From IMG/VR virus record IMGVR_UViG_3300030329_000135, positions 1 through 28,640 of that record: DNA of 28,640 nt; one strand, written 5' to 3'. This DNA comes from a virus. The notes beneath the pieces were generated by a model. The model was not told the origin of the DNA. It worked only from the letters and a program-made list of their open reading frames with translations, and made no database searches. A program made the position numbers and the translations under genes. Below are positions 1 to 28,640 of this stretch, in pieces (positions within the stretch are counted from its first letter, which is position 1; each line of letters starts with the position of its first letter).

Positions 1-132
1 TATATCATTATTCGCCAAAGCAAATACGACATTATACCAACCCCATTTACCCTCTAGCGTTTTGCCCTCAATCTTTGCCTCTCCCTCCTGGAATATCTGA
101 CTGAAGCGATTGGTAGTTTTCTCCCTAAACGA
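1..132 (-). CDS. -1 frame continuation of the tail-chaperone-like gene (partial, runs off left edge)
   Basis: Directly downstream of the ten-T run at 132-141 (minus-strand sense), the -1 frame is open for 44 codons to base 1. It reads SFREKTTNRFSQ, then IFQEGEAKIEGKTLE, then GKWGWYNVVFALANNDI. Unlike the arginine-rich end of frame 0, this has normal composition, an amphipathic stretch and a WGWYNVVFALANND segment that, as I remember it, recurs in the C-terminal part of related Bacteroidetes phage proteins. I infer that the full product is made by a -1 slip on T_TTT_TTT, or that one T is missing from the assembled run. The end lies outside the window. If the sequence closes on itself, the frame continues in phase into the truncated gene at 28515-28640, but one frame in three would do so by chance. 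Confidence 0.6.
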
Positions 133-650
133 AAAAAAAAACTCAATGCTGACATTGAGGGAAGTATTGGAAACTCTAAAAAGGATTCCTCTATTTCTTC
201 ACTTGGACTATAAGGCTGTATCTTATATCTTGTACTACTCTCCTTTTTAATAGGGCGATATAATATACTCATAATCTTATGTATGTTCTTATGAGCCTCT
301 TTACAATATTCTTCAATATCAATATATTCACCCATAGTTATCTCACTTAGATTAGGTATAAATCCATACTTCTTTCCATTCCATTCTACTTTCTTTTGTA
401 GCTCATCTGTATTTGGCGTTGAGGACATTAAAAACTGTAACTCTTTAGCTATTTTATTAATATCCTTAACCTCCATTCTTTCCAACACCTCTCTTTTAAT
501 ATCGCAAATAATACAAATCACTTGTATATTAAACTCTTGCTCCTCTAATCTTCCTTTCCTTTTCTTTAACCTTTGAAACTTGTTATACATCTTAATACTT
601 ATGTCATTCCAAGTAGTAGGTATTTCAATGCTTACTTTTTCTTTTCCCAT
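54..650 (-). CDS. Tail assembly chaperone-like protein (frame 0 product)
   Basis: This 198-residue product begins MGKEKVSIEIPTTWNDISI and has the LSEITMGEYIDIEEY and HKIMSILYRPI segments that I associate with a conserved Bacteroidetes phage protein encoded in the terminase/tail region. No catalytic motif is visible. Frame 0 is credible up to SALSFFF (about residue 173) and then becomes a basic tail of low credibility (SRRERQRLRAKR) before stopping. The change happens exactly at a run of ten Ts (132-141). This suggests a short and a long (-1 frameshifted) product, as in lambda gpG/gpGT-type tail chaperones, although a homopolymer sequencing error would look the same. It lies 32 bases downstream of the large terminase gene, and its start follows the AT-rich leader TATATATACTATTA. 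The chaperone role is inference. Confidence 0.6.
   Translation of the reverse strand: MGKEKVSIEIPTTWNDISIKMYNKFQRLKKRKGRLEEQEFNIQVICIICDIKREVLERMEVKDINKIAKELQFLMSSTPNTDELQKKVEWNGKKYGFIPNLSEITMGEYIDIEEYCKEAHKNIHKIMSILYRPIKKESSTRYKIQPYSPSEEIEESFLEFPILPSMSALSFFFRLGRKLPIASVRYSRRERQRLRAKR
132..141 (-). other. Slippery T10 run, candidate -1 programmed frameshift site
   Basis: On the coding (minus) strand the sequence is AG followed by ten Ts, then CGT. In frame 0 it reads AGT TTT TTT TTT CGT, so it contains the heptamer T_TTT_TTT, a textbook -1 slippery sequence. The frame 0 reading loses plausibility after it and the -1 reading gains it. I did not identify a convincing downstream stem or pseudoknot by eye. 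Confidence 0.5.
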
Positions 651-682: not shown

Positions 683-1858
683 TTATAATATGTAATATTG
701 TCCACTATAATTAGTCATTAGCTTATTTAAGGCTGTATATCTAACTGCATCAATAATATGATCTTGTTGGTTAGTAGCAGGTTTATTTACTATATGTCCA
801 TTCTTATCAGTTAGCCATTTGTAATATTTAAACTCGTTTAATGCATTGGTACTACTTTTAGTTATATGTAGTTTAAATCGCCTTAAAATGTCTATACCCA
901 TGTTTATAGAATCCGCTCCTTTCTTAGCTCCTTTAATATTAAATCCTAATCTATGTAATTCCTCTATTGATTTAGGCTCTGCACTATCTGCTATTATTTC
1001 TGTTTGTCTTGTTATATTTAATTCTCTTAGCTTCTGTGCTATATCTTGGTTTGTTAATCCTTTACTATATATTAGTTCGTTAATATACAAATCATCATTT
1101 AATTTAAACACTTCTACTATTGCTGTAGGATCGTTAGAATAACCCCAATCAAGTCCTAATGCAACAAGCTTAGCTTCAGTAGGCACATTATTAGCTATCT
1201 CAAATTGTCTAAATATAGTTTCTGTAGGTTGAGCCATATCCCCTAATCCATATATCTTCCAATAGTTACTATCTAAATCTCTAAGTCTTTCTATCTCCTT
1301 AATTGTTTCATCAGGTAAAAAAGGATTATCTAAATAAGTAGATTTAATAAATGTACAGTCCTCTCTATTCATAACATTATCATATATCCAGGAATAAGGA
1401 TCACTAGGATTAAAGTCTAAATAGATATTCTCTGTAGTTCTTAATGAGAGCTGTACCCAATCTTCAAAGCTAAACTCATTAGCCTCATTAAGCCATAATA
1501 TGTTTCTCTTACGCCCTCTAATTTTCTGTGGCATATCAACACTAATAAACTCTATTTCATTTTTATTTAGCTTATAAGTAAGTTCTGATTTATTATGATT
1601 GTTTGGATTGTATAGATTGTGTTCTTCTAAGATGTTAAAGAAATCTCTATATGCAGTACCTTTAAGAGCAGGTAGTGTTTTCCTACAAATAGTATATACC
1701 TTTCCTTGCTCCTGTAAGGCTCTTAGAATGATTAACTGTGCTAAAGAATAAGTCTTACTACTTCTAGTACCCCCTTGATTTACAACGATTCTAGTGGTCG
1801 CATTAAGATTCTTCTGTAGAACTACTGTTCCCTTTAGGTTTAACGATTTCAATTTCAA
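683..1858 (-). CDS. terL: Terminase large subunit (packaging ATPase and nuclease)
   Basis: This is the DNA-packaging motor, which translocates DNA into the prohead and cuts it. In the 391-residue protein the N-terminal ATPase has a Walker A-type loop, GGTRSSKT (29-36), and a Walker B strand, ILWLNEANE (120-128), with its catalytic glutamate. YLDFNPSDPYSW (146-157) looks like the motif joining ATPase and nuclease. The C-terminal RNase H-fold nuclease shows three acidic positions in the expected order: GLDWGYS (D237), IIADSAEPKS (D291) and HIIDAVRY (D370). Length and motifs fit the PBSX/Terminase_3/6 group. The chosen ATG overlaps the small-subunit gene by 56 bases. I kept it because the residues before Walker A (GTVVLQKN...RIVVNQGG) belong to the family's first strand, so a later start would truncate the ATPase fold. 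Confidence 0.96.
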   Translation of the reverse strand: MKLKSLNLKGTVVLQKNLNATTRIVVNQGGTRSSKTYSLAQLIILRALQEQGKVYTICRKTLPALKGTAYRDFFNILEEHNLYNPNNHNKSELTYKLNKNEIEFISVDMPQKIRGRKRNILWLNEANEFSFEDWVQLSLRTTENIYLDFNPSDPYSWIYDNVMNREDCTFIKSTYLDNPFLPDETIKEIERLRDLDSNYWKIYGLGDMAQPTETIFRQFEIANNVPTEAKLVALGLDWGYSNDPTAIVEVFKLNDDLYINELIYSKGLTNQDIAQKLRELNITRQTEIIADSAEPKSIEELHRLGFNIKGAKKGADSINMGIDILRRFKLHITKSSTNALNEFKYYKWLTDKNGHIVNKPATNQQDHIIDAVRYTALNKLMTNYSGQYYIL

Positions 1859-7811: not shown

Positions 7812-8051
7812 TTAACAATTAAAGTTAGCATAGTCTATATCATTTTCAATTAAAAAGTATCTTTTAAATCTTTTTTTTTGACCATATAAATTTACCCTAC
7901 TTTCCCATTTGTCAAGTATAGTATATCCATCTTCTTTAAGGTTTCTAATAACTCCCTGTAGATCTATAATAAAAAGTTCTACCACACACTCAAAAGAGGT
8001 TATACTTTCATTCTCTTTTAAGTATTTTAATAATGTTTCTTTTTGTGTCAT
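7812..8051 (-). CDS. HTH_39-like DNA-binding protein
   Basis: The 79-residue product starts MTQKETLLKYLKENESITSF and continues through a helical region to LQGVIRNLKEDGYTILDKWE. This is the layout of the small phage helix-turn-helix proteins grouped as HTH_39 (MTQ+E.VL.YL...G.ITS..A). The C-terminal half (RVNLYGQKKRFKRYFLI) would be the wing. It overlaps the upstream 62-residue gene by 4 bases. It probably regulates early phage transcription, but the target is unknown. Confidence 0.7.
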   Translation of the reverse strand: MTQKETLLKYLKENESITSFECVVELFIIDLQGVIRNLKEDGYTILDKWESRVNLYGQKKRFKRYFLIENDIDYANFNC

Positions 8052-10041: not shown

Positions 10042-10505
10042 AATCCTTTTTCTATTGTATGGTATTTATATTTAGTCTTTCCACTTTCTTTATAAGCCTC
10101 TAATAATGATTTTCTATTATATTCGTGGTTATAGCTTATATGAATCCAAGAATAGTTAAACTCATTAATCATTTGGTCAAAAGGCAACCCTAGTTCTATA
10201 ACCTTATCCCAAATAGCCTTATTATTCATTACTCCATCTACTTTAAATTGTAGATCTGCTGCCTGTCCTTTACAGTGTTGGCTCTTTTTAGAGCCTTTTA
10301 TGAGCTTATTTAGGCTTTCTGAACGATAACCACTAGTGATTCTAATTGGTTTGTTTAAACCCTCTCTAAGTGGCTGTAAGACATATTTAACTAATAACTG
10401 TATATTCCTTATATGTTCAGCGTTTGGAGAATTATCTATACCATTTCTAATTGCTGATACACTTTTAGTAAATTCTTGTAGTGTAAAATTCTTTGATAAA
10501 ATCAT
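10038..10505 (-). CDS. Endolysin, peptidase M15 family
   Basis: This 155-residue enzyme has the M15 zinc peptidase signature: RITSGYRS (55-62), SQHCKGQAADLQ (75-86, the SxHxxGxAxD motif with H77 and D84) and SWIHISY (119-125) with the third zinc ligand H122. It would cleave peptide cross-links of peptidoglycan at lysis. There is no signal peptide, so export must depend on the holin encoded immediately downstream (4-base overlap). Length is normal for phage M15_3-type endolysins. It shares one base (TAATG) with the thioredoxin-like gene. Confidence 0.95.
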   Translation of the reverse strand: MILSKNFTLQEFTKSVSAIRNGIDNSPNAEHIRNIQLLVKYVLQPLREGLNKPIRITSGYRSESLNKLIKGSKKSQHCKGQAADLQFKVDGVMNNKAIWDKVIELGLPFDQMINEFNYSWIHISYNHEYNRKSLLEAYKESGKTKYKYHTIEKGL

Positions 10506-10882
10506 TATCTAAATTTAGAGATTATAATGCTGTCTATTACAGCTTGAATTTCTTGTTTTTCAACATTTAACTTAAAAAGCAAATCTCCTTTCCAAGTTCT
10601 AATAATTTTTTTTTTGTTGAAAACTATTATCGTGGGTAATACTTTAATCTTGTAAGATTCTGCTAAGTCAGGATTGTCCTCTATACATACTCTGTACTTC
10701 CTGCAGTCTTTTAAACTGCTTAAGAAATAGCATTTGTTACTGTCGTTCCAATCAGCCCAAAACTCAACTACTATAGGCTCTGTGGACATTTGAGCCTCTT
10801 TGAGTTTAGCTTTGTCAATAAGCGATTGGCTAAAACATTGATAAGGTATTACCCATAATAATATATAAAAAAGGTATCTCAT
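10505..10882 (-). CDS. Exported thioredoxin-fold protein lacking the CxxC motif
   Basis: The first 20 residues (MRYLFYILLWVIPYQCFSQS) are a Sec signal peptide with a flavobacterial-looking ...SQ end. The remainder reads as a thioredoxin fold: PIVVEFWADWNDSNKC (37-51), a helix, RKYRVCIEDNPDLAESYKIK, then VLPTIIVF (81-88) with the cis-proline, and a last strand KIIRTWKGD. The active-site WCxxC is replaced by ADWNDSNKC, so only one Cys remains at that site, with C60 and C66 nearby. It therefore probably does not work as an ordinary disulfide oxidoreductase. It sits in the lysis cluster, one base from the endolysin gene. A periplasmic role in lysis or exclusion is speculation. Confidence 0.72.
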   Translation of the reverse strand: MRYLFYILLWVIPYQCFSQSLIDKAKLKEAQMSTEPIVVEFWADWNDSNKCYFLSSLKDCRKYRVCIEDNPDLAESYKIKVLPTIIVFNKKKIIRTWKGDLLFKLNVEKQEIQAVIDSIIISKFR

Positions 10883-14058: not shown

Positions 14059-16290
14059 TTAATTGTATTTACCTCTTGTTGGAGTATTAATAGGAGCTAT
14101 AGTTGGAGCAGGAGTTCTTGGCTCTTGATCTTTAATCTTTCTCCAACTTGAAGCAAATCTACCACTATTAACCTCTGATAAAAAGCTATTTCTAAACATA
14201 TCTAAAGTACCATTAGGAAGATATGTACCACCTTTATAAGTCTTTCCATCTATTGTTACTTGTGTTCCTTTAGGTACTCTTTTTCTTATATAAAACTTTC
14301 TAACAAAATAATGATGACAATAAGCCCCTCCTTTCCATTGGAAAATATCGTATGTATTCGCCCCATTTATACCAAAGCCTTTATTTACGCTTAAATTTTT
14401 AGCTTGTTTTAAGTTGTTAATTGTATATAAAGTTCCTGCTTTACTTAGTCTTACCATTTGTTTGCAAAAATCTCTACTATTAGCTTTTAAATTTCTAGAA
14501 TATCTATATAAAACCCTTATTAAACCTGCATTACTATCACTTGTTGGACTATCAGGATTTGATGGTATTCTTCCTGCGCTTGCAAACTCATAATGTTTGC
14601 TTAAATGTTGATTTGTAAAGGCTTGAAACTTCTCCTCAGTTTCTGTGTTACTATCTTCTGCATCTATTTCTCCTAATTCAAACCACTCTTTATCATCTAT
14701 TTCTGTGCTTTTTAAATTAGATAGGATTACTTTAGCATCATCATCACTTAAATTTTTCTCTACATTTTCTATTTCCTTTACTTTCTTTGCTGCCCAAGTT
14801 TGTCCTGGGTCACCGCCCCATAATTTCCATGCAATTGCGCCTGCTGAAGGGTAGCCATCTTCTCCAGGATCAAATCCCTCTGCTTTTTTATCTACTTCGT
14901 GCCTACTAAAAAAGCTGTGCATTCTTTTAATCGTGTCTAAACTTAGATTTTGACCATTGACTATTGACCTGGCACGAGCAACAGCAACCATAGTTCCACC
15001 TCTACCATGTTCTTTTCTCATTTCTAAACCCATTTTAGCCTGTTCTATCATTCCTTTAGTTGGTTTAGTGTCTATATCATCTAAAGCCTTAAATTCTTTC
15101 TTTACAGGCTCTCCTGTGTCTATTCCCTCTTTCTCTTGTTCATCTTCATCTTTTTTAGCTATTGTTTCAATATCTATAAAATCAGCAGGTTTAAGCGATT
15201 TAAAGTACAAATCAAGGTTTATATCACAAATATCAAAAATAGCTTGTAAACCCTCTAAAAGTGTGTTTTGGAATGGTTTTATTACAGTATTGTTAAATAA
15301 GCTGTAAGAATCTCTAAGCTCATCAGCATTATTACCAAAAGATGAATTTCCATTAACGCCAAAGAGGAGGGGGCTGGTACAACGGTGACCCGTCAGCACT
15401 TTTCTAGTAGTTTCTGTAGATAAGAATTGATAACTATCTGAATTGTCATTAGCATTTATAGGAACTATCTCAGGAGCTGTGTCTTTTCCATCATTAAAAG
15501 TTATTAGAATCTTGCCTGCATTACCACTACCACCAAATTTAGCGTTTATCTGTCTTTCTATAGTTCTTCTTTCCTCTCTTGTTGGTACGCCATTAGCAAA
15601 GTTTACAGCCATGCTAGGAAACATACCTGACTTTATATTAGATAAATGAAACTGCGCTATCTCCATATCTAATTGTATGTAAGAAGTAGAGCCTTGATAG
15701 TCAGGTAAGGAATAATAGTAACTACCAGGAGAATAATCTTTGATACATAATACTTGACTTGCACTTGTTCTGTCCTTTTCATCAAACGCTTTATATGTTC
15801 TTGGTTTGTGCTTTCTAGTATTATTCCAATCTGCTGAATAGTAATACTCATTTACTTTACCATAAGCATCAGCTTTTCCACTTCTTATATATTGTGCAGG
15901 GATATGATACATTTCTACAATCTTAGTTCTAGGCTTGTTCCATATTGTATTTACATAACACATTCCGAACAATTTTAGATCAAAAGCTAGGCACTTTAAA
16001 AGGTCTTTTTGTGAATGTCCTAGTAAAGATGTAAGCCTTAGCCATTGTTCCTTATGTTCTTCGCTATCTTGTTTATCAGTAGCATCTAATCCCTCTCCAT
16101 AAATCATAGCTGAAACACCTTTTATGATAGCATTATTAATACTACTACCATTGTATAATTCAAGTAGATATTGAGGGTACATATTATCTGTACCAAATTG
16201 TATATAATCTTTGTTAGCTGTTTCAGTAACTTCAGGTAAGTTAAATTCTGCTAAATGTATTACTGATATTTCTGTATTTTTCTTTTTCAT
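14059..16290 (-). CDS. Portal protein with two extra C-terminal domains
   Basis: Residues 1-370 of this 743-residue protein form the portal, the dodecameric DNA gate of the prohead: QFGTDNMYPQYLLELYNGSS, INNAIIKGVSAMIYGEGL, DLLKCLAFDLKLFGMCYVN and RKVLTGHRCTSPLLFGV. A low-complexity acidic/lysine linker (about 378-405) follows. A separate module then appears at 408-505 (KPTKGMIEQAKMGLEMRKEHG, RGGTMVAVARARSIVNGQ, MHSFFSRHEVDKK, PSAGAIAWKLWGGD), a pattern I recall from many marine phages as a stand-alone or fused domain of unknown function. The last part (585-665; YRYSRNLKANSRDFCKQMV, then FQWKGGAYCHHYFVRKFY) resembles the end of Bacteroidetes phage protease/capsid-associated proteins. Usual portals have about 400-550 residues, so this is a fusion. 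Confidence 0.85.
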   Translation of the reverse strand: MKKKNTEISVIHLAEFNLPEVTETANKDYIQFGTDNMYPQYLLELYNGSSINNAIIKGVSAMIYGEGLDATDKQDSEEHKEQWLRLTSLLGHSQKDLLKCLAFDLKLFGMCYVNTIWNKPRTKIVEMYHIPAQYIRSGKADAYGKVNEYYYSADWNNTRKHKPRTYKAFDEKDRTSASQVLCIKDYSPGSYYYSLPDYQGSTSYIQLDMEIAQFHLSNIKSGMFPSMAVNFANGVPTREERRTIERQINAKFGGSGNAGKILITFNDGKDTAPEIVPINANDNSDSYQFLSTETTRKVLTGHRCTSPLLFGVNGNSSFGNNADELRDSYSLFNNTVIKPFQNTLLEGLQAIFDICDINLDLYFKSLKPADFIDIETIAKKDEDEQEKEGIDTGEPVKKEFKALDDIDTKPTKGMIEQAKMGLEMRKEHGRGGTMVAVARARSIVNGQNLSLDTIKRMHSFFSRHEVDKKAEGFDPGEDGYPSAGAIAWKLWGGDPGQTWAAKKVKEIENVEKNLSDDDAKVILSNLKSTEIDDKEWFELGEIDAEDSNTETEEKFQAFTNQHLSKHYEFASAGRIPSNPDSPTSDSNAGLIRVLYRYSRNLKANSRDFCKQMVRLSKAGTLYTINNLKQAKNLSVNKGFGINGANTYDIFQWKGGAYCHHYFVRKFYIRKRVPKGTQVTIDGKTYKGGTYLPNGTLDMFRNSFLSEVNSGRFASSWRKIKDQEPRTPAPTIAPINTPTRGKYN

Positions 16291-20835: not shown

Positions 20836-23100
20836 TTATAGGGTACTTTGTAAATCAAGTTCTGATTGTAAAGCCTGTGCGCCACTTACATCACTTTCTA
20901 CAACAAACGCTTGAATAGGGGGAGCATCTGATTCAACAGCTCCAAATGTAACTGATGGAACATCTCCTGTCATATCTCCACCAACTTCTGTAACAGTATC
21001 AGGCATACTATCATTACCACCACCGCTACCTCCTCCAGGTACTTTAGTCTTACTAATTTCTGCTAAGTTCTTAATACCTGTTGCTATAATTAAACCTGCT
21101 TGAGCAAAATTAAAAGGAAAAGGAACTTGAGCCATAGCCTTAGTTGCTCCCATATAAGTAGCCATAATAGTTTCAGCACTTGCAACAGCTTTAAAAGTAG
21201 CAGTACCCTCTTTAGCAAGATCCATACCCATTTGTAAAGTTTCTAATCCTGCTTGTCTTTCTAATTGTTTTTCTAATTCTTTTTCCTTTCTTATCTGAGC
21301 AATCCTATCTCTCATCATTTTAAATGCTTGTCTTTGCTCCCTTGTATTTATTTCGTTTATAGCATCAGCTTTTTCTTGTTCTAGTTTTTCAGTTGCCTCA
21401 GCATTACCCTGAGCTAACCCAATAAGTCTATCATACTTTTCTTCAGCTAATCTAATCTCTTTTTCTTTTGCTGTTTCAAAATGTAAAAATAACTCATCAT
21501 CTGCTTGTTGTTGAAGAACTGTTTTTGTTTCCCCTAAACTTTCTTCTATTTCTTCTATCTCTTGTGCATACTTTTCTTCTATCTCTTTTTTCTTTTCATT
21601 AGAATTGTTAATTATATTAAGTGAAGCCTCTGCACTTTGCTCAGAGGTTTCTAGTTGTGCTTGTGTTATATCATTATATACACCTGCTTCACTTTCTAAA
21701 TCTGTAGCTATTTTTTGTATATAATCCTCAAATTCTTTTTCTACCTTTTCTAAATCTTCAACAACAGCGTCAATAAAATAATCAGGTTCTGCAGAGTTTC
21801 TAATTGTTTTTATATTAGTAGCATTTTGCTGTTCAAATTCTTCTTGTAATTTTAGTAAATCCTCAAAAGATTTTATATTACTATCTTCAATTAATTTAAG
21901 AAATTGTCCTTGTGAATTTATAAGTCCAGAATATGTTTTCTCATTCTCAGCTATATAATCAAATCTGTAATTCATCATACCTTTTTCATTAGCTGTATCT
22001 CTAAATAGTTTTAAATCAGCTTTTACATTTTGTAAAATTTTCTTTTGCCTTTTTTCATCTTCTTTGTTCTTTTCTTCTATGTCTAATTTATATGCTTCTG
22101 TTTGTTCGTTTTGAGCCTTTATATTAGCCTTAGCATTTTTTACACTTGCATCAACCGCATCTAACTCCGCTTTCATTTGCTGTTTTTTCTGCTCTATAAG
22201 CTCTGCATTTGCTTCTTCTGCATTTTCAAATTGTGCATTTAAATCTCTATTTGCTTTTTTCTTTACTTTTATATCTTCATTCTGTAGGTCAATTAATTCC
22301 TGTAGCATTTTAGCCTCTTTCGCTAACTGTTCCTCTCTAGTCCTTGCAGCTTCTTTTTGTTGTGCTTCTCTTTCTCTTTCTAATGAATTTAGATTAGTTA
22401 ACTGCTCTGACCTTTGACCTGTAATCCTTTCATCTATTTCTGCTAATTTTGTCTTAGCATCTAACAAAGCAACCTGTAAATCTACATTATTTTTATTTCT
22501 TGATAGCTCTACTTCAGCTAAGAATAAACTCTCCTCTGCTATATCTCTTTCCCTTTGTAGTTGTTCCTCTAAAACTTTTCCTAATTCATAATTTGCATCT
22601 ATTCTTTGTTGAATACTTAAACTCTCATCATCTCTAATTTGTCGCATTAACTCAGCTTCCTTTTGATATTGTAGTTGCAATAAACCTAATTCAGCTTCTA
22701 ATAGTGTAACCTCTTTTCTTTGCTTTACTAAAGCATCTGACATATCTTCTGTTCCTGAAACAGCACTCATAGTTATTCCTACTAAATTTGCAATACCATC
22801 TACCACTGTAGCAATTACTTCAGCAACAGCAATTAAGATAGGCTCTAACGCTAAAAACATTTTATTCATAGCATCCATAAACTTCTGATTCTTTTGTAGC
22901 TGTTCTACTAACTTAGCAAATAAAGTTACTATCAACCCTATACCTGCTGCTTTCATAGCAGTACCCATAATCTTAAAGCCTTTACCTGCTAACTGTCCTG
23001 CTCCACCAATTCCTTTTAACCCCTCATCAACATTTTTTAAATCTTTTGCAGCTTTACCTGTTTTAACATTTAATTCTATATCTATTTTCTTTTTAGCCAT
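20836..23100 (-). CDS. Tail tape measure protein
   Basis: This is the second-largest gene (754 residues). It starts MAKKKIDIELNVKTGKAAKD and is dominated by long coiled-coil helices of Glu, Lys and Gln (about 125-620). Hydrophobic segments lie near the start (AAGIGLIVTLFAKLVEQL, LEPILIAVAEVIATVVDG) and near the end (VASAETIMATYMGATKAMAQ, FAQAGLIIATGIKNLAEI). The glycine-rich end GGGSGGGND and the final IQAFVVESDVSGAQALQ match Bacteroidetes tape measures in my memory. It sets tail length and is ejected into the host membrane. It follows the tail-tip-type genes and precedes the capsid genes, unlike lambda. Confidence 0.88.
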   Translation of the reverse strand: MAKKKIDIELNVKTGKAAKDLKNVDEGLKGIGGAGQLAGKGFKIMGTAMKAAGIGLIVTLFAKLVEQLQKNQKFMDAMNKMFLALEPILIAVAEVIATVVDGIANLVGITMSAVSGTEDMSDALVKQRKEVTLLEAELGLLQLQYQKEAELMRQIRDDESLSIQQRIDANYELGKVLEEQLQRERDIAEESLFLAEVELSRNKNNVDLQVALLDAKTKLAEIDERITGQRSEQLTNLNSLEREREAQQKEAARTREEQLAKEAKMLQELIDLQNEDIKVKKKANRDLNAQFENAEEANAELIEQKKQQMKAELDAVDASVKNAKANIKAQNEQTEAYKLDIEEKNKEDEKRQKKILQNVKADLKLFRDTANEKGMMNYRFDYIAENEKTYSGLINSQGQFLKLIEDSNIKSFEDLLKLQEEFEQQNATNIKTIRNSAEPDYFIDAVVEDLEKVEKEFEDYIQKIATDLESEAGVYNDITQAQLETSEQSAEASLNIINNSNEKKKEIEEKYAQEIEEIEESLGETKTVLQQQADDELFLHFETAKEKEIRLAEEKYDRLIGLAQGNAEATEKLEQEKADAINEINTREQRQAFKMMRDRIAQIRKEKELEKQLERQAGLETLQMGMDLAKEGTATFKAVASAETIMATYMGATKAMAQVPFPFNFAQAGLIIATGIKNLAEISKTKVPGGGSGGGNDSMPDTVTEVGGDMTGDVPSVTFGAVESDAPPIQAFVVESDVSGAQALQSELDLQSTL

Positions 23101-26473: not shown

Positions 26474-27900
26474 TAGCTATTTGTTCTTACTTTATTAGCG
26501 TATTCTAAATTAACTGTATATTGTATTTTGATCTTGTTATTTACACTTGTTTTTTTAGTGTATTTTTTATCTGTTATTACTACAGGATATACCACATTAT
26601 CATCTGCTAATATTTGTACATTAGTAGATGTAAATAGTTCTTCTAACCAAACCCCCTCATCAGGATTAAGCCAATCACTATTTATAGTTAGTTTTCTTGT
26701 AGCTTCAGTATATAAAGTCTTTTTACCTCTATCCCAATTATTGTAAGTAAATGTAGCACTATCCCAAGTACCAGGAACGCTACCTGCATCACTTCTTGTT
26801 ATGTCTACGCTTTCTGTTGATTTGCCTCTAAAGTTCATATAATCCCAAGCTCCTAATCTATTACGCCAAGCAAGTCTAACATTATCATATCTTGTACAAC
26901 TTTGATGTCTATCATCCACACCTGTTCTTGTAGCCCCATATCTATAGAAATAATATTTATCTGTTTCTTGGTTTCCTGAGCCATCTGCTCCATAGATAAC
27001 ATAATACGCCCAATCTGCAAATTCACTAGGTTGATTGTCAGGCTCATCTACTTGATTTTCTAAGTTAGCTGTACCGCAACCAAAATATAACAAACTATTT
27101 TTAACATCATCAGCGGTAGCTTTACCACCACTACCTGTATCATTAGTAAAGTATTTAGTTGATCCTATTTGCCCTCCTGCGCTATTGTAATATTCAATAG
27201 CCATCTTTACTAAAGCATCTCCATCAGTAACCAATCCTTTATTTATAAAAGCTATTGTTAGCTCATCTACATTATCTGCTGCTGTGCTACTACCTCTAAC
27301 AAATTGAACTCTCGGAGCATTAGTTAAAAACTTCTTTGTAGCTCCACTAGGTATATAGTTTGTTAAAGGATTGTTACTACTAGATGGACTTGTTATAATG
27401 TAATCTAACCCACCTACATTTGTTCCTGTATCTGTATAAGGAGTAGATGCAGGAATAGAGTATATTATTGTATTAGCTAAGGTTAATGTTTCTTCAGGAG
27501 CAGCGGTAGCAGATGAAGCCTTTTCATAACCACCTACTAATTTAACACCTACTACTTGGCTTGTATTTTGTGAATAAGAATTACTTGTATCTGATATGCC
27601 TATAGAATGAATACTACCTGCTATTGCTTCTTGATTTCCTACATTTTTTTCCTGTGTTTCTAAATAGCTTCTAACTATTTTATGAACATCTACTATTCCT
27701 ACATCTGCACTATTTTTATGTATTTTTATTTTAGCTCTTTCTACCCAAGTAGAAGCATCTGTTGTACTAATATATACTTGTGCTATATATCTAAATTTAT
27801 CTGCATTATATATAGCAGGGCTATCTTCTTTTAATACAAACACCATAGGGCTATTTGCTCCTGCTAATTGATTTGGTTTCTGTTCTATTGTATACGCCAT
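26473..27900 (-). CDS. Tail protein, possibly distal-tail type, 475 residues
   Basis: The product starts MAYTIEQKPNQLAGANSPMV with strands KFRYIAQVYISTTDASTWVE and VHKIVRSYLETQEKN. The second half has VRLAWRNRLGAWDYMNFRGK and LNPDEGVWLEELFTSTNVQI, then KKTSVNNKIKIQYTVNLEYA. The 'R..W.N+.G..DY..F' motif followed by an antiparallel strand domain is one I recall from Bacteroidetes phage tail-tip proteins, where it is thought to adapt the tail to its tip. It shares one base with the 1074-residue gene and lies four bases after the gp10-like gene. The specific role is inferred. Confidence 0.65.
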   Translation of the reverse strand: MAYTIEQKPNQLAGANSPMVFVLKEDSPAIYNADKFRYIAQVYISTTDASTWVERAKIKIHKNSADVGIVDVHKIVRSYLETQEKNVGNQEAIAGSIHSIGISDTSNSYSQNTSQVVGVKLVGGYEKASSATAAPEETLTLANTIIYSIPASTPYTDTGTNVGGLDYIITSPSSSNNPLTNYIPSGATKKFLTNAPRVQFVRGSSTAADNVDELTIAFINKGLVTDGDALVKMAIEYYNSAGGQIGSTKYFTNDTGSGGKATADDVKNSLLYFGCGTANLENQVDEPDNQPSEFADWAYYVIYGADGSGNQETDKYYFYRYGATRTGVDDRHQSCTRYDNVRLAWRNRLGAWDYMNFRGKSTESVDITRSDAGSVPGTWDSATFTYNNWDRGKKTLYTEATRKLTINSDWLNPDEGVWLEELFTSTNVQILADDNVVYPVVITDKKYTKKTSVNNKIKIQYTVNLEYANKVRTNS

Positions 27901-27903
27901 TTC

Positions 27904-28515
27904 TTAAAAGTTTAAATCTTCTTCTTTTATTTTTATTGTATTTGGTAATTTACCCACTAACTTCTCTAAGTCTAATCTAAAGGCTTCTGTAAGTTCGTTA
28001 GGAAGCGTTCTAAGGGCTTTATTCACAGGCTTACTATAAAACATTGTCCTTTCTAATCCACGCCTTTTTATACTATATCCTATTCCCCAAGCAGCACTAT
28101 TTATATTGCTATCCCCTAAACTAACAGGCTTGTTCTTAATCCAACCTTTAATAGCATTAACCATATCTCCTCCAGGATTAGCATATTTAAATTTAAAAGG
28201 ACTTGCTCCCCCTCTTGCATTTCCACTACCTTTAAAACCACCCACGCCAACAACACCTTGATCGACAAACTCCCAATAATCACTTGCTCTACCAAACTCA
28301 AAGCCAAAAGTAATTGTACTACTTGAGCTTTTCATTTTGTAGTGATAATCATTAAACAAAGTATTTGCCTGTGTTCTTTTGCTCTTTTGATTTAATATCT
28401 TTCTACCCTCTTTAATAACATTAGAACCAAAACTTGTTAAGGCTTTCTCTAAGTGTTTAACTTCTCCTCTTACATATTTACCATCAGGACTCCTTAATTT
28501 TAATCTTACAGCCAT
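27904..28515 (-). CDS. HK97 gp10-like neck/tail-completion protein
   Basis: The 203-residue protein begins MAVRLKLRSPDGKYVRGEVK and has a helix (HLEKALTSFGSNVIKEGRKI). The segment SSSTITFGFEFGRASDYWEF is followed by VDQGVVGVGGFKGSGNARGG, which matches the 'Y..FVE.G..G' pattern of the HK97 gp10 family. A helical end includes RLDLEKLVGKLP. Members act at the head-tail junction as the first tail protein. It shares one base with the truncated upstream gene (TAATG), and the tail genes follow directly. The fold call is good; the exact role is not certain. Confidence 0.72.
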   Translation of the reverse strand: MAVRLKLRSPDGKYVRGEVKHLEKALTSFGSNVIKEGRKILNQKSKRTQANTLFNDYHYKMKSSSSTITFGFEFGRASDYWEFVDQGVVGVGGFKGSGNARGGASPFKFKYANPGGDMVNAIKGWIKNKPVSLGDSNINSAAWGIGYSIKRRGLERTMFYSKPVNKALRTLPNELTEAFRLDLEKLVGKLPNTIKIKEEDLNF

Positions 28516-28640
28516 TATGTATTAGGATTATTATCTGATGGCTCTATAGGAGCATTACAGAGGTTATTAGCGTTGTTTACTTGTATTGACATTGATGTAC
28601 TCCAACCTGTAAGAATATTAGCAAATCTTGCAGTAAAAGG
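28515..28640 (-). CDS. C-terminal end of an upstream gene (truncated at right edge)
   Basis: The last 41 codons of a gene entering from beyond base 28640 read PFTARFANILTGWSTSMSIQ, then VNNANNLCNAPIEPSDNNPN and a final T before TAA. The stop overlaps the next start as TAATG, consistent with operon coupling. A beta-type, Asn-rich end suggests a virion protein, but too little remains to name it. Its frame matches that of the -1 continuation at 1-132 if the sequence is joined end to end. Confidence 0.55.
   Translation of the reverse strand, partial: PFTARFANILTGWSTSMSIQVNNANNLCNAPIEPSDNNPNT

Follow-up and report, generated by a model that had tools for sequence, protein, structure and literature searches.

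Conserved T9 to T11 run and a probable programmed -1 frame transition in a putative tail assembly chaperone gene of Bacteroidota phages

Comparative analysis of a 28,640-nt IMG/VR virus contig (the window, meaning the whole stretch of DNA that was analysed, with its genes on the minus strand) pointed to a gene of Bacteroidota phages in which a conserved stretch of nine to eleven T's (a T9 to T11 run) would serve as the site of a programmed -1 frame transition, so that two products would arise. The probability of this reading was put at about 0.85. Unshifted expression would give a short protein composed of a conserved N-terminal part (N-part) and a frame-0 tail, and, in a fraction of events, a slip with the effect of adding one U to the run would give a long protein in which the N-part is fused to the WGWY C-terminal part (C-part). 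Both proteins, as well as the ratio of short to long product, are predicted from sequence. The transition is supported by the conservation of the architecture and the run, the lack of an independent start codon, the constraint on both reading frames, and the single-ORF state of distant relatives. The features at the site were as follows.

54..650 (-): frame-0 ORF, the predicted short (unshifted) product of 198 aa, from the ORF call and homologues
135..650 (-): conserved N-part, 172 aa, PHROG 32199, common to the predicted short and long products (alignment; model pLDDT 90; PHROG match in 43/43 members)
132..141 (-): T10, the putative slip site, T9 to T11 in homologues and kept in 154/155 distinct junctions
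124..129 (-): TTTAGG directly 3' of the run, reading FR in the -1 frame and LG in frame 0, with a TAG stop in the +1 frame
54..131 (-): tail that only the short product carries, read in frame 0 across bases that the -1 frame also covers
1..132 (-): C-part in the -1 frame, PHROG 38404, truncated at the window edge

The initial annotation, made from the letters of the window, had described the site correctly: the T10 at 132-141 (-) lay inside the ORF at 54-650 (-), the T_TTT_TTT heptamer was present in frame, and the -1 frame was open from T10 through the window edge (SFREKTTNRFSQIFQEGEAKIEGKTLEGKWGWYNVVFALANNDI), the C-part being ~87 codons long in relatives. Past T10, frame 0 was read as RLGRKLPIASVRYSRRERQRLRAKR, with a stop at 54. 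The arginine-rich character that had been ascribed to this tail holds in the window but not as a general trait; it was found to be lineage-specific, and the frame-0 tails in the larger T9 group were mostly 50 to 65 aa and not arginine-rich. Under a Markov model, 0.16 sense-strand runs of 10 or more T's were expected in the window, and the presence of the T10 is by itself unusual, yet not decisive.

Homologues were gathered from a first scan (20 relatives), profile scans, and one locus from genome contigs, resulting in 252 loci that carry both parts. These represent 155 distinct junctions, which formed 47 clusters at 70% identity. N-part identity to the window ranged from 95% to ~26%. All 19 relatives from the first scan that reached the site had T10 or AA-T11-G with the C-part in the -1 frame, the frame relation at the AA-T11-G sites being the same as at the T10 sites. 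In the locus L005, unrelated sequence followed a T6, close to the end of its available stretch. Across the full set, 154/155 distinct junctions combined a frame-0 N-part with a WGWY C-part in the -1 frame, the two meeting at an uninterrupted T9 to T11 (T9, n = 124; T10, n = 26; T11, n = 4), with all three codon registers represented. The sole exception was L108, with a T8 at 2496-2503 where the near-identical L106, L107, and L109 have T9, and on this comparison its T8 is a single-T deletion, either natural or from assembly. An alignment of homologues had been proposed as a check in the initial annotation, and its result was that the two parts were always split at the T run in these 154 junctions and were fused in none of the 252 loci. 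The same arrangement was found in the Nonlabens phages P12024S and P12024L, at 27% identity, in which T9 is followed by ATCATTTAGGG and the -1 ORF reads SFRERLRDLYPE...; the programmed transition appears to have gone unrecognised in both. The protein gp39 of P12024S (L022:8522-8689) was given its own entry as a hypothetical protein starting at an internal ATG, and corresponds to the 3' part of the -1 C-part.

The pattern of substitutions indicated constraint on both reading frames. Variation was concentrated at third positions, those of frame 0 up to the run and those of the -1 frame beyond it, and the closer group showed this switch best. Approximately seven codons 3' of the run were constrained in both frames, with LG in frame 0 and FR in the -1 frame, and the frame-0 second positions (L-G-x-x-L) were conserved though they are third positions in the -1 frame, suggesting that the unshifted product is selected too. 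Both the short and the long products thus appear to be under selection. The third base of the Arg codon was G in 110/121 sites, and in the N-parts AGA was three times more common than AGG. We discarded a further argument, which held that neither frame constrains the third base of the F codon after the run: in frame 0 this base is the second of the Leu codon, and selection on the protein may explain its invariance. In the +1 frame, a stop was found within three codons of the run in 147/155 junctions, which would immediately terminate products made from other run lengths; the stop belongs to the FR/LG codons and may be incidental.

More distant relatives were reached from the N-part model (pLDDT 90): a structure search with it pointed to Flavobacterium phage 6H, through which the Duneviridae, Polaribacter phage Leef, and a Microcystis phage were found. 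In the Duneviridae FPSV-F7, laban6-1, and Ingeline (PHROG 25418), the homologue is one ORF of ~300 aa, and no T9 run was present at the joint. As in the window's lineage, a homologous N-part is followed by a probable C-part homologue in collinear order. With hhalign, the N-part of the window's lineage aligned to the first 209 columns of the single-ORF homologue (probability 97.6, E 2.7e-12), and the C-part aligned onward from the N-part end with a probability of 25 and an E value of 8e-4, a match that is weak alone but exactly collinear. The Duneviridae homologue differs in being a single ORF without the run, so that no short form would be made by slippage, and this state supports the trans-frame product as a real protein. 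The initial annotation had considered that a frameshift would be refuted by homologues that carry the two parts in a single frame and lack a slippery sequence; such homologues were found only in these distant Duneviridae, where they instead favour the trans-frame product. By this comparison, it is in the window's lineage that the two parts are split at a T run.

Phage 6H itself was considered as a further frameshifted case and rejected. Its gp10 (L263:10352-10927) breaks frame where 98 to 99% identical relatives (FPSV-F7 and others) have one ORF, and the 6H record therefore looks to have been frameshifted by mutation or by sequence error.

Several other explanations were weighed against a programmed transition. 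The -1 C-part could be a separate gene with its own start, the T run being incidental, as the annotation of P12024S gp39 from an internal ATG implies. However, no start codon was conserved in the -1 ORF (ATG in 0/28 in one group and 1/30 in the other), FR was conserved right up to the run, 5' of any such start, the T run was invariant, and the distant relatives have one ORF, and we regard a separate gene as very improbable. Sequencing or assembly error in the homopolymer, or decay of the gene, would agree with the single-T difference that does occur in L108, but not with the same frame relation in 154/155 junctions or with the constraint on both frames, and its probability was judged to be negligible. 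The one-base homopolymer error that the initial annotation had offered as its alternative is excluded by this recurrence, and a pseudogene was ruled out by the homologues that keep the frame relation. Replication slippage is likely at long runs, and the T8 of L108 could be its product; the long product might then be toggled by phase variation at the DNA level. Both states would be expected in that case, whereas the fused state, with one more T, was observed in 0/252 loci, and little credence was given to this explanation. The comparative data therefore strongly support the proposal of the initial annotation that the N-part is joined to the WGWY C-part by a programmed -1 transition.

With regard to the mechanism of this transition, a slip by RNA polymerase on the T run was favoured at slightly better than even odds, none of the features being decisive. 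One extra U in the mRNA would give the -1 frame. A conserved run of nine together with a conserved ORF organisation is the mark of productive transcriptional slippage (Baranov et al., PMC1088944), and runs of nine A or T yield mRNAs with extra nucleotides (Atkins et al., PMC5009743). The gene under study keeps a run of at least nine along with its ORF organisation. The minimum run was 9 in all registers, while the heptamer needs only 7, 8, and 9 T's in registers 2, 1, and 0, respectively. The eighth T was never C in 121 register-1 sites (38 clusters at 70%). At nearly all sites, C at this position would be synonymous in both frames (TTC Phe; CTA/CTG Leu) and would leave T_TTT_TTC, and TTC accounts for 24% of Phe codons in the same genes; as a rough figure, the chance of finding no C in independent clusters is 0.76^38, or ~3e-5. 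Away from the site, the coding sequences of these loci contained, on the sense strand, 0 runs of nine or more T's against 11.9 expected and 8 runs of nine or more A's against 50 expected. A conserved downstream fold was not found over the 155 sites (mean fold z of approximately -0.1, no supported pairs), single-sequence fold z being weak evidence, as the dnaX control reached only z -1.6. A Shine-Dalgarno-like (SD-like) motif was found upstream of the run in 0/155 sites. The conserved nine-T minimum and the lack of a stimulatory structure are accounted for by transcriptional slippage no less well than by ribosomal slippage.

The rival to polymerase slippage, which concerns this sub-mechanism only, is classical ribosomal -1 frameshifting by tandem tRNA-Phe slippage on T_TTT_TTT without a stimulatory structure. 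It is possible because the heptamer fits every site in all registers. Lambda-type chaperone frameshifts are ribosomal (PMC5009743), and little stimulation is needed at low efficiency. Moreover, T_TTT_TTC may merely be a poorer ribosomal slip site, and the avoidance of T runs elsewhere could also stem from replication slippage. On the other side stand the retention of at least nine T's in all registers, the absence of TTC at the eighth T, and the failure to find a downstream structure or SD-like motif over these sites. Ribosomal slippage was accordingly held to be a tentative alternative at roughly one chance in three, and a slip by both polymerase and ribosome was considered unlikely. Of the reading given in the initial annotation, the -1 transition stood, but a ribosomal slip is not required by a T9 minimum with no stimulatory structure. 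It was regarded as an even bet that, throughout this broad clade of Bacteroidota phages, slippage of RNA polymerase and not of the ribosome determines the short-to-long ratio of the tail chaperone.

Long A runs were also observed elsewhere in the window. A sense-strand A10 at 10606-10615, in the ORF at 10505-10882 (-), is another possible slippage site and occurs even though runs of nine or more A's are rare in the genes of these phages, and a sense-strand A9 is present at 7871-7879 in the ORF at 7812-8051 (-).

The gene is probably a tail assembly chaperone resembling lambda G/GT, a role suggested by its G/GT-like architecture, its structural-gene neighbourhood, matches to phrog_166 and 2OB9, and the position of the 6H gene. 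If it works like lambda gpG/gpGT, the tape measure protein would be coated by the short form, with the long form bringing in the tail-tube protein. The relevant neighbours in the window were as follows.

683..1858 (-): terminase large subunit, directly upstream of the frame-0 ORF (PF04466, E 2.9e-29)
28516..28640 (-): 3' end of a 170-aa gene, next after the C-part in relatives (translation matches L006:3894-4406; blastn)
20836..23100 (-): candidate tape measure protein, 754 aa (weak PHROG tail length tape measure matches, E 2e-4 to 1e-2)

In the window's lineage, the gene thus follows the terminase, and several tail-module genes precede the tape measure candidate downstream, whose best PHROG match was phrog_21537, a virion structural protein. 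The 6H homologue, by contrast with no lineage in particular, is encoded upstream of the gene annotated as tape measure in that phage. A protein encoded downstream of the gene in the window is presumably gp10-like. The genome is permuted, with ~480 nt missing between the window end at 28640 and base 1, and in L006 the ATG of the next gene overlaps the end of the C-part ORF. When window positions 27641-28640 and 1-2000 were compared with the contig locus L008, one end was 99.9% identical and the other only 90%, a mosaic relationship. The portal protein (14059-16290, 743 aa) was observed to match a separate PHROG (2859) over residues 405-512, as if a second protein had been fused.

Database matches for the gene itself were few. 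The phrog_166 "tail protein" match was weak (E ~1e-3, 12/43 members), PF10109 was found with an E value of 0.1, under its cut-off, and no confident family was found in Pfam or NCBIfam. The two halves are filed in PHROGs as 32199 and 38404, both of unknown function. The HK97 chaperone 2OB9 was matched with a Z score of 3.0 over 73 residues, ranking 2 of 15 rows and tied with unrelated rows. A Foldseek search of the N-part against the PDB gave nothing with an E value of <0.001, and the sequence search against the PDB gave chance-level matches only, mostly centrins. The C-part model was poor (pLDDT 69). The tail-chaperone-like label of the initial annotation is plausible, although its backing from sequence and fold searches is weak.

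The literature searched contained no description of this gene and no report of transcriptional slippage acting in tail chaperones, a result that is not proof of novelty, as most subscription papers lay outside the search. The analysis identifies a frame-shifting gene for a large, mostly unannotated clade of environmental phages with at least 565 relatives, gives annotators the real product of halves now filed as separate families of unknown function, and provides a natural test case that could tell the two slip mechanisms apart. Were the slip transcriptional, different machines would have solved tail-chaperone stoichiometry on two occasions, and the length-control logic of lambda G/GT would be implemented at the level of transcription.

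The closest known systems are lambda gpG/gpGT and its HK97-type relatives, in which a -1 transition late in the gene likewise gives a short and a C-terminally extended form, and in lambda as here the genes lie among structural genes. The slip site described here is an unbroken T9 to T11, in contrast to the G_GGA_AAG of lambda, and frame 0 continues for 21 to 100 codons past the slip. The gene also differs from lambda gpG/gpGT in having no confident sequence match to it, and in its place after the terminase, whereas the lambda gene immediately precedes that for the tape measure. In IS elements, Shigella mxiE, and Thermus dnaX, as in this gene, runs of at least nine A or T are kept along with the ORF organisation, and no stimulatory structure is needed. 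Compared with those systems, the present case is a phage gene of the chaperone type, its run is composed of T, and its slippage is predicted from sequence.
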